Part shown: positions 20,302 to 23,433 of the stretch, in pieces
Numbering within the stretch: the first letter of the stretch is position 1
How the letters are laid out: every line of letters begins with the position of its first letter
Assembly: GCA_902797945.1 (NCBI GenBank)
Contig: CADBUU010000115.1
Location: forward strand, 1 to 37,178
DNA from: an uncultured Eubacteriales bacterium
Lineage (GTDB): Bacteria; Bacillota; Clostridia; Christensenellales; Borkfalkiaceae
Reading direction: 5' to 3'
DNA: 37,178 nt
Made by a program: the position numbers and the translations under genes
The notes under the pieces: generated by a model
Database searches by the model: none
What the model saw: the letters and a program-made list of their open reading frames with translations, nothing else
What the model was told of the DNA's origin: nothing

Positions 20302-21353
20302 ATGTCGAAAATAATCTTTACCGGCGGAGGAACTGCCGGACATTACGCGCCGAATTTCGCCGTAATTTCCGCCCTTAAAAACTCTTTTGACGAAATATAT
20401 TATATCGGAAGCAACTTCGGACCCGAAAAACAAGCGGTAAAATCTAAAAACATTCCCTATTTCGGTGTTACAACCGTAAAACTTCTCAGATCTTTGTCTT
20501 TAAAAAACGCAACTATTCCCATTAAACTTTTAAAAGGTATCAAAGATAGTAAAAAAATATTAAGGGAAATTCAGCCAGACGTCGTGTTTTCAAAAGGGGG
20601 ATACGTCGCGCTTCCCGTAGTTATTGCGGCGAGCAATTTAAAAATACCCGTTATAACCCACGAATCGGACGTATCCATCGGACTTGCAAATAAAATCGCA
20701 TGTCGCCGTTCGTCGATGGTTCTGACATCATTCGAGGTTACTTCAAAAAAATAAAAGGAGCGGTTGCCGTCGGCACACCGATACGCCCCGAACTCTTTGA
20801 AAAAAGAGATAAATCTCTTATTATTAAGCAATTCGGACTTGACGAAAACAAAAAGACTTTACTCGTTACGGGAGGAAGTCAAGGTAGCGTCGCAATCAAT
20901 CAGGCGATTGAAAAGATTGCCTATATGCTCGTTAACAGGTATAATATAGTTCACGTCTGCGGAAAAGGTAAACTTATAAAAAGCAAATTTAAGAATTACC
21001 ATACAATGGAATACTGCTCGGAAATGGAAAAACTATATTCGATTGCCGACCTTGCCGTATCGAGAGCGGGCGCAAATACTTTATTCGAACTTATTTCTCT
21101 TAAAATACCCACTCTTGCTATACCTCTACCAAAGGGAAATTCTCGTGGCGACCAAGTTGAAAACGCTTTATATTTTAAAGATAAAGGACTTATAGACCTT
21201 CTTTTTGAAGAAAACGCTTCTCCTCTCGCTCTATACGAAAAAATCATCGAACTCGACGCTAATTCCGAAAGGATAAAGCGTAATTGTATGGAAGTGGACT
21301 ATTCGAAGAATGCGGAAAAAATTGCGGAAATACTAAAAAATTATAGACGTTAA
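20302..21353 (+). CDS. murG: MurG N-acetylglucosaminyltransferase, interrupted by a -1 frameshift
   Basis: Transfers GlcNAc to lipid I to form lipid II at the membrane's inner face. Frame 1 (20302-20754) carries the N-terminal domain with GGGTAGHYAPNFA, FSKGGYVALPVV and THESDVSIGLANKIA. It stops at TAA 20752-20754 straight after a run of seven A. The -1 frame then continues without a gap (KKIKGAVAVGTPIRPELF) through TGGSQGSVAIN, SRAGANTLFELISLKIP and RGDQVENA to 21353. The joined protein would be 350 residues, normal for MurG, and the RGDQ form is the clostridial branch. Either a base was lost in the A-run (mutation or read error) or expression uses slippage. It has its own promoter and a strong ribosome site. 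Confidence 0.9.
20745..20754 (+). other. A7 slippery heptamer followed by UAA in murG
   Basis: A_AAA_AAA at 20745-20751 is in phase as X_XXY_YYZ with respect to the murG start, and the zero-frame stop TAA follows directly. A -1 slip restores the full MurG frame. AAAAGGAG follows at 20753-20760. Confidence 0.75.
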
Positions 21354-22307: not shown

Positions 22308-22951
22308 ATGAAAGATGACTTAAATTTAAAGCAAGAAATTAGGGCACTGGTTTTATTAAAGACTTTATATCCTAATATATATACTGAAATCATTAAAGAT
22401 GAACGACCTGATTTAAAAGATTTTTTAGAAAATGTCGGTATTGAAGTTACTTGTGCCACCTATGACATTAAAGATGCACTTATCAATAATTTTAAGAATA
22501 AAAAATATAACAAAAATACCAACTTGATTAATAAAATTAAAAAAGACAAAGAGCCCTGTGGGGTTTCTGTAAATTCGGAAAAAATTATTGCGGTTACCTA
22601 CTGGAATAATATTTCTTGTTTTATTGAAAGGCTTAAAGATAAATTAAACAAGTTGATTGAATATAAAAAGATTAATACTTTTGATTTATATGATTTATAT
22701 ATAAACGGTGAAAGTTTTTCGTTAGACACTGAAGACTGCGATTATTTATTAAAAGAATTTATTAAAACTCAAAAAGAGTGGAAAGAAAGTATCGTTTTAT
22801 TTATATTCAAATATCGCCTATACTATATAAATTTGATTTAGTTAATAATGTGTTTGATTATAAAAACATATATGACGAAATAAGTTTTAATTTAGAAGAG
22901 GTTGTCAAGAAAAAAGCAGATAAACATTTAAAGGAATTGACAAAAAAATAA
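22308..22951 (+). pseudogene. Hypothetical protein, frameshifted; possible nuclease-like fold
   Basis: The first frame (22308-22841) gives 177 residues ending in a poor tail (FKYRLYYINLI). The -1 frame picks up with good sequence, IQISPILYKFDLVNNVFDY and onwards, to a TAA at 22949-22951; joined, the protein would be about 214 residues. So a single-base loss occurred near 22800-22812. The N-terminal part has KQEIRALVLLKTLYP followed by RPDLKDFLENVGIEVTCA; a PD...GIEVT arrangement recalls PD-(D/E)xK nuclease cores, but the rest of that motif is not certain. Codons are strongly A/T-ending, unlike core genes. AGGAT precedes the ATG by nine bases. No function is claimed. Confidence 0.6.
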
Positions 22952-22965
22952 ATTTATGGTATATT
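22937..22965 (+). promoter_or_regulatory. promoter of the leader RNA
   Basis: -35 TTGACA (22937-22942), 17-bp spacer, extended -10 TGG-TATATT (22960-22965). The -35 lies in the last codons of the hypothetical gene. Predicted start about 22972, at the foot of the large hairpin. Confidence 0.85.
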
Positions 22966-22970
22966 ACATT

Positions 22971-23103
22971 TGCTACACATCTTAATATTTTTCTTATCAA
23001 AGGAGAATACTATGTAAAATGTATTCTCTCGCCTTTGGTAAGAAAGGATGTGTAGCAACAAGAGAGAAGCATTTTGGGTGCGTCTTTCGGGGCGCACTTT
23101 TTT
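22971..23103 (+). ncRNA. Structured leader RNA with 87-nt three-tier hairpin and terminator
   Basis: Predicted transcript of about 132 nt. The hairpin spans 22971-23057 in three stacked stems: TGCTACACATC with GATGTGTAGCA (22971-22981, 23047-23057), CTTATCAAAGG with CCTTTGGTAAG (22993-23003, 23032-23042, one G-U), and AGAATAC with GTATTCT (23004-23010, 23021-23027). A strong Shine-Dalgarno AAAGGAG (22999-23005) is sequestered in the stems. The apical loop holds ATG-TAA (23012-23017), a start codon followed directly by a stop. A terminator ends the unit just before the lipoprotein ribosome site. Either a transcription attenuator of the lipoprotein gene or a stand-alone small RNA. Confidence 0.7.
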
Positions 23104-23117
23104 ATTGTGGAGTATGA
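23019..23117 (+). CDS. Putative 32-codon upstream ORF spanning the terminator
   Basis: ATG at 23019-23021, seven bases after the start-stop ATG and 13 bases after AAAGGAG. The frame runs through the terminator stem and ends TGA at 23115-23117, four bases before the lipoprotein ATG. The peptide starts MYSLAFGKKGCVATREKHFG and is cysteine-bearing. A ribosome translating it would open the terminator, which is the logic of a translation-coupled attenuator. Whether it is translated is not shown. Confidence 0.4.
   Translation: MYSLAFGKKGCVATREKHFGCVFRGALFYCGV
23078..23103 (+). terminator. terminator or attenuator before the lipoprotein gene
   Basis: Eight-base stem from GTGCGTCT (23078-23085) and GGGCGCAC (23090-23097) closed by a TTCG tetraloop, followed by six T residues (23098-23103). 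Confidence 0.88.
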
Positions 23118-23121
23118 TTTT

Positions 23122-23433
23122 ATGAGAAAAAGCTTTTTAATTAAAACTATATTGTTATTATTCTTTTCGTGTTTGTTTTTAGTGTGCTTTTCTGCATGTA
23201 ATAAAGAAGATAAAACAATTAAAGGCACTGATATATTTTCAGATATACTAACAGTAGATAATACGAATAAAACAATATACGGTAAATTATCAAATGGTAC
23301 GACATCCTTTAACATTAATGATAATATAAAGGTTGCCGAGAACGCTCATCATCGTTTCGTTCGGAATAAATATATTGACGGTGATAAACCTTGCAATAAT
23401 ATATGCTATAAAGTTCAGAAATCAGATATTTGA
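23122..23433 (+). CDS. Small lipoprotein, possibly truncated surface protein
   Basis: A 103-residue protein with a lipoprotein signal: MRKSFLIKT, a long hydrophobic core, and lipobox CFSAC (residues 22-26), so the mature protein would begin at C26 and be tethered to the outer face of the membrane. The mature part is short (KEDKTIKGTDIFSDI, then TIYGKLSNGTTSFNINDNIKV). That resembles the start of modules in larger clostridial surface lipoproteins (vsN.T..fsf...I.V), hence a possible truncation; the last 30 residues look unrelated. The ATG at 23122 follows GTGGAG by nine bases; a longer in-frame start would overlap the terminator. It is placed directly downstream of the attenuator-like leader. 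Confidence 0.6.
   Translation: MRKSFLIKTILLLFFSCLFLVCFSACNKEDKTIKGTDIFSDILTVDNTNKTIYGKLSNGTTSFNINDNIKVAENAHHRFVRNKYIDGDKPCNNICYKVQKSDI

Follow-up and report, generated by a model that had tools for sequence, protein, structure and literature searches.

The 5' leaders of the pyr (PyrR) attenuators of Bacillus can fold into three hairpins that exclude one another, namely an anti-antiterminator, an antiterminator, and a terminator. Ribosome-mediated attenuators precede the resistance genes tet(M), erm, and ABC-F. Integron attC sites are folded elements whose ends are conserved and whose middle varies; they lie next to changing cassettes. Published examples of ribosome-mediated attenuators of resistance genes include those of msrD (PMC10314930) and HflXr (PMC6310831). 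Also described, in outline, is the SLH motif, a riboswitch candidate from Synergistaceae, Clostridia, and Negativicutes that lies in about 60% of cases ahead of S-layer homology genes (PMC6429828), and a large list of candidate structured RNAs has been predicted from human microbiomes (PMC8040213). The main text of the latter contains no match to the RNA reported here; its full list could contain it.

Here we describe a leader RNA in a window of 37,178 nucleotides, the whole stretch of DNA that was analyzed (contig CADBUU010000115.1 of assembly GCA_902797945.1), from an uncultured Eubacteriales bacterium assigned to the Borkfalkiaceae (Clostridia; Christensenellales). We put the probability at about 80% that this RNA is a cis-acting transcription attenuator, located at the 5' end of accessory-gene transcripts across the class Clostridia. 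The kind of mechanism is already known; neither Rfam 15 nor the literature that we searched yielded the RNA family, its spread, the mixed set of genes behind it, or its exchange as a module. Like the pyr attenuators, the RNA appears to combine an anti-antiterminator, an antiterminator, and a terminator in a 5' leader, but those attenuators belong to pyrimidine operons, whereas the present RNA precedes unrelated accessory genes, has a different hairpin, and matches nothing in Rfam. With the ribosome-mediated resistance attenuators it shares its place in front of accessory genes and a leader that contains a terminator and can fold in alternative ways; unlike them, it lacks a conserved leader peptide, and resistance genes are rare downstream. 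The SLH motif, as its description presents it, is likewise an orphan leader found partly in Clostridia ahead of genes for cell-surface proteins. Judged against that description, the present RNA differs in that SLH is not among its commonest downstream families and in that a sample of the phylum yielded no copy outside its class. The resemblance to integron attC sites lies in the folding and in the conserved ends and variable middle beside changing cassettes, whereas nearly every copy here has its own promoter, terminator, and RNA-level alternative pairings.

All parts of the window copy lie on the forward strand. A sigma-70-type promoter (22937 to 22965) consists of a -35 box, TTGACA (22937 to 22942), a 17-nt spacer, and an extended -10 element, TGG-TATATT, which ends at 22965, 6 nt 5' of a hairpin whose first nucleotide (22972) is the predicted 5' end of the transcript. 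The hairpin (22972 to 23056; -37.6 kcal/mol), identified by folding and covariation, has three tiers: P1 (22972-22982/23046-23056, 11-12 bp), P2 (22990-23003/23032-23045, 14 bp), and P3 (23004-23010/23021-23027, 7 bp), capped by an apical loop (23011 to 23020). An asymmetric internal loop between P1 and P2 (22983 to 22989) contains a conserved AAUA, which is exact in 47 of 68 diverse representatives, and a CUCG bulge occupies 23028 to 23031 on the 3' side. The whole leader folds far better than dinucleotide shuffles of it (z = -7.35), 0 of 200 being as good. A first-pass annotation of this DNA had described an extended-consensus promoter at the foot of an 87-nt, three-tier hairpin; the promoter and the three tiers are present, and the length is 85 nt. 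The strong Shine-Dalgarno sequence that it placed inside the hairpin is there as well, in the form of a Shine-Dalgarno-like AAAGGAG (22999 to 23005) buried within the stem.

The part that the first-pass annotation overlooked is strand D, or strand 3 (GAGAGAAGCAUUUU, 23062 to 23075). This strand is the predicted partner of both the 5' arm of the terminator and an apical strand 2 (S2; AAAAUGUAUUCUCUC, 23016 to 23030), which would otherwise pair with strand 1 in P3. In the predicted antiterminator (23062 to 23088), positions 23062-23067 and 23069-23073 would pair with 23077-23081 and 23083-23088. The intrinsic terminator (23078 to 23103) comprises a hairpin at 23078-23097 with a UUCG loop (23086-23089) and a U-tract (23098-23103). 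Beyond it lie a Shine-Dalgarno-like UGGAG (23108 to 23112) and a small lipoprotein gene of 103 amino acids (23122 to 23433) with its ATG at 23122. A 32-codon open reading frame (ORF) (23019 to 23117; TGA at 23115-23117) does run through the UUCG-capped terminator, as had been annotated, and stops 4 nt before that ATG, but it is probably not functional. The patch holding the RNA and the gene has a G+C content of 0.21-0.31 versus 0.41 for the window, in agreement with the distinct composition previously ascribed to it.

A low-G+C orphan ORF on the forward strand (22308-22841) apparently carries on in another frame to 22948; the combined stretch (22308-22948) ends just before the end of the promoter, looks interrupted, and has no Pfam match. 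Farther upstream, a MurG-like glycosyltransferase (20302-21353, forward strand) is split over two overlapping frames, with the family 28 N-terminal domain in 20302-20754 and the C-terminal domain in 20700-21353. This normally essential gene thus appears frameshifted, which is possibly an assembly or sequencing error.

In a DNA search, the query genome yielded a second copy, and 10 of 60 relatives had matches. True copies from this search each precede a different gene, except for one identical pair; among the weakest matches, L012 and L013 were not the element, and L013, a short terminator match only, was left out. Because MAFFT misaligned the variable stems (P2/P3), we used covariance-model alignments instead. 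A first covariance model, built from six copies, gave matches for 97 of 301 family genomes, representing 12 of 18 genera, and for 47 of 396 genomes at the level of the order, representing 25 of 143 genera. A second model, built from 92 copies, detected the RNA in 71 of 391 genomes sampled from the class, spread over 44 of 223 genera; single genomes gave as many as 9 matches, and several pairs of copies lay in tandem. When 398 genomes sampled from the phylum were searched, the query genome alone matched, which points to a low false-positive rate of the covariance search. These counts place an orphan, putatively regulatory RNA, often in multiple copies, in about a third of the sampled genomes of this gut family and nearly a fifth of those of the class. 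Records titled 'Clostridia bacterium' or 'Clostridiales bacterium', most of them of ruminant-gut origin, were linked to it by an exact-pattern search, and the genomes seen by name are metagenome-assembled.

Searches of Rfam 15, at the gathering threshold and at E values up to 10, gave nothing credible for the window element, and no match overlapped the element in 20 class-level loci. The scan itself works, since it detected an L10_leader and a tRNA in the same window; the former (RF00557; 32293-32433, reverse strand) is the ribosomal protein L10 leader, an ordinary known leader RNA. An Rfam check and a covariance-model search were the follow-ups that the first-pass annotation had suggested: the window leader matches no Rfam 15 family, and the search yielded many homologues with covarying stems ahead of different genes. 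It is close to certain, from these comparisons, that the window copy is one member of a large structured-RNA family that is absent from Rfam 15. BLAST found no match to the element in plasmids and none to the window copy in phages, and exact patterns found none in IMG/VR. Two unannotated human-gut scaffolds named 'Bacteriophage sp.' (L167 and L168) carry class-level copies, one of them ahead of a lipoprotein-like gene; these scaffolds may be host fragments or prophage.

Covariation was scored in alignments fitted to the model. Among the 92 homologues, 96.4% of pair cells were standard and 27 of 30 pairs had changes on both sides, with a covariation score of 0.629 compared with 0.177 for shuffled alignments and at most 0.10 for slid ones. 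The 47 matches from other families, whose loci were unused for the model, were 94.9% paired with two-sided changes in 29 of 30 pairs, in an alignment again fitted to the model, and scored 0.812 versus 0.224 when shuffled, with slid controls again far below. The stems differ in what they keep. P2 is unconstrained in sequence while its pairing is retained, but P1 is sequence constrained (GCnACAYA ... URUGUnGC), with a third pair that takes all four Watson-Crick types. Elements repeatedly show the AAUA internal loop and an apical loop of the GGYA type, and the constrained P1 together with the AAUA loop is as expected of a recognized element. A T-box reading, in which the apical GGYA would meet the tRNA end, was considered from the sequences only and rejected, since UGGN is not kept in the loop.

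The elements have a common layout of -10 box, P1-P2-P3 hairpin, strand D, terminator, and usually a start codon. A promoter with at least 9 of 13 matches lies upstream in 137 of 143 elements, compared with 2% of random positions; the end of the -10 box lies exactly 6 nt 5' of the hairpin in 136, and 138 have the extended TG. A U-tract stands at the place of the terminator in 138 of 143 elements, so that an intrinsic terminator generally separates promoter and gene, as it should in a transcription attenuator. An ORF of at least 50 amino acids begins within 75 nt downstream in 97 of the 143.

For the alternative pairings, we performed swap tests on 68 representatives sharing less than 75% identity, comparing own with swapped duplex energies over 5,000 permutations. 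Own S2:D duplexes came to -14.6 kcal/mol against -9.2 for swapped ones (z = -16.2; 0/5,000), and duplexes between D and the terminator 5' arm (T5) to -14.5 against -9.3 kcal/mol (z = -15.7; 0/5,000). The control combinations (strand 2 with the terminator arm, strand 1 with D, and strand 1 with the terminator arm) were null among the same representatives. In the window copy, the S2:D duplex has an energy of -16.3 kcal/mol, and the antiterminator (-10.5 kcal/mol) is set against a terminator of -13.4 kcal/mol; across the family, the median difference between the two is 2.3 kcal/mol. The D:T5 swap test, the null controls, and the balanced energies together indicate a mutually exclusive antiterminator kept by compensatory change. 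There is little room for doubt that the alternative pairings of D are real in this RNA family, and they suggest a five-strand logic of anti-antiterminator, antiterminator, and terminator.

In the switch that we propose, transcription would start at the foot of the P1-P2-P3 hairpin, which is the likely sensing part. If D paired with apical strand 2, the terminator arm would be free and transcription would stop; if D paired with the terminator 5' arm, the resulting antiterminator, which could form before the terminator as the transcript emerges, would allow read-through into the gene. The direction of switching and the P1 gate are what we infer. With P2 kept, pairing of D with strand 2 would create a pseudoknot, difficult on steric grounds while P1 is closed, so whatever holds P1/P3 closed would leave D free for antitermination. 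The nucleotides from P1 to D look too few to span P1 plus P2, and P1 would thus probably have to open. At two loci (L150 and L166), a gene of the FCGH.. family seems to start at a UUG overlapping the U-tract, and the terminator hairpin contains its Shine-Dalgarno sequence, AAGGAG; termination may thus be coupled to translation at these loci.

The genes behind the RNA are varied. BspA-type leucine-rich repeats (LRRs) occur in 18 of 104 downstream proteins; others carry zinc-ribbon, SHOCT, Mrr-type nuclease, or RCC1 repeat matches, some are candidate defense proteins according to PADLOC, and many have no family among the matches listed. By the raw counts of a simple scan, 29 of 112 downstream proteins are lipoprotein-like and 20 more are N-terminally membrane anchored or signal bearing. 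Judging from such matches, the downstream genes appear to be unrelated accessory genes for lipoproteins, BspA-LRR surface proteins, small membrane proteins, and defense-like proteins. The RNA would then give shared access to a large group of genes whose function is unknown and which have apparently spread by horizontal exchange, and the identity of its effector would show when bacteria turn on these lipoprotein, BspA-LRR, and defense-like genes. The window lipoprotein is 51% identical over its first 77 amino acids to a 312-amino-acid lipoprotein behind the same RNA at another locus (L035), and its weaker homologues are open frames of 121 to 1,075 amino acids. Because it matches just the first 77 residues of the longer protein, the window gene is probably a truncated member of a larger lipoprotein family.

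The first-pass annotation had read the leader as a promoter-driven transcription attenuator, and covarying stems kept ahead of different genes support this. It had further inferred that the switch works by translation of the 32-codon ORF, with the logic of antibiotic- or stress-induced attenuation on mobile elements. Under such ribosome-mediated control, translating, or stalling on, the ORF would melt the terminator, and the lipoprotein gene would be transcribed or reinitiated. The ORF and its stop 4 nt before the gene fit this, similar ORFs are kept in some close relatives, and a Shine-Dalgarno-like sequence plus start codon is found in the apical region of 21 of 68 diverse representatives (17 of the 21 running through strand 2) versus 7.3 in shuffled hairpins. 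That excess, however, plausibly reflects the frequent AGGG at the P2 top in this family, and most representatives lack the combination. Nor is the frame of the ORF more often open to the terminator end than the other two (13, 16, and 18 of 42 representatives for the three frames; 34, 23, and 37 of 75 family elements). In the window, the best-spaced ATG (23012) is immediately followed by TAA, and the 32-codon ORF uses a second ATG (23019); coding-like conservation (MYSL...VAT...) can be explained by the RNA pairings. A conserved translated leader ORF, the mark of such an attenuator, was not found. With a start that is not conserved and a frame no more open than the others, we reject translation of this ORF as a general sensor and regard ribosome-mediated attenuation as quite improbable, although the ORF could still modulate the window copy alone. 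Resistance-type proteins are likewise few (two APH-like kinases and one MATE-like protein of 104), and a drug-resistance regulon is rejected as the general rule.

The stable hairpin from +1 and the strong terminator would also suit a mainly trans-acting small RNA of about 130-150 nt, with read-through into the neighboring gene being incidental. Some copies lie far from any ORF or adjoin none, so part of the family may be stand-alone small RNAs or relics, and in tandem pairs the leading unit comes with a promoter and terminator of its own. For the family as a whole we think this unlikely, given the ORF that starts within 75 nt in 97 of 143 elements and the conserved antiterminator pairing, from which a stand-alone small RNA would have no evident benefit. 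Near-identical elements within unrelated flanks, diverse accessory cassettes downstream, and tandem copies could instead indicate a site of DNA recombination or a mobile repeat (an attC-like site or a MITE) that is incidentally transcribed, its covariation coming from a single-stranded-DNA hairpin. Such a site would leave unexplained the fixed spacing to the extended -10 promoter and the terminator, as well as the element-specific complementarity of D to both S2 and T5; the 25 commonest downstream families include none of recombinases, and promoter and tail travel with the element only sometimes. We consider it very improbable.

In the 20 element pairs with identities of 95% or more, the downstream 300-nt flanks were unrelated in 18 and the upstream flanks in 14, and in several such pairs the similarity of the promoter region was at background level. 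That near-identical elements often sit in unrelated flanks indicates modular exchange of the leader, apart from its promoter and gene. At L029-L031, the promoter or upstream flank comes along and the gene alone is exchanged. Four loci spread across genera (L070, L071, L067, and L060) carry elements 96-100% identical, with unrelated promoter spacers and flanks on both sides; the unit they have in common begins at the predicted start of transcription and reaches as far as the terminator. More tentatively, and as a possibility rather than an expectation, the leader may be a spreading module, a start-to-terminator unit copied between loci and genera that lands 6 nt behind a -10 box and puts unrelated surface, lipoprotein, and defense-like genes under one class-wide signal, with P2 replaced wholesale between otherwise identical neighboring copies. 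A conservative guess is that the units move and diversify by homologous recombination between copies. At L147, two tandem copies (1001-1132 and 1316-1441) are nearly the same in promoter, apical part, D, terminator, and tail but have P2 stems that differ wholly on both strands. Elsewhere, L005 and L006, from genomes placed in two different genera, are identical in element, flanks, and lipoprotein gene, which suggests recent transfer; a resolvase-like ORF lies within the L005 locus.
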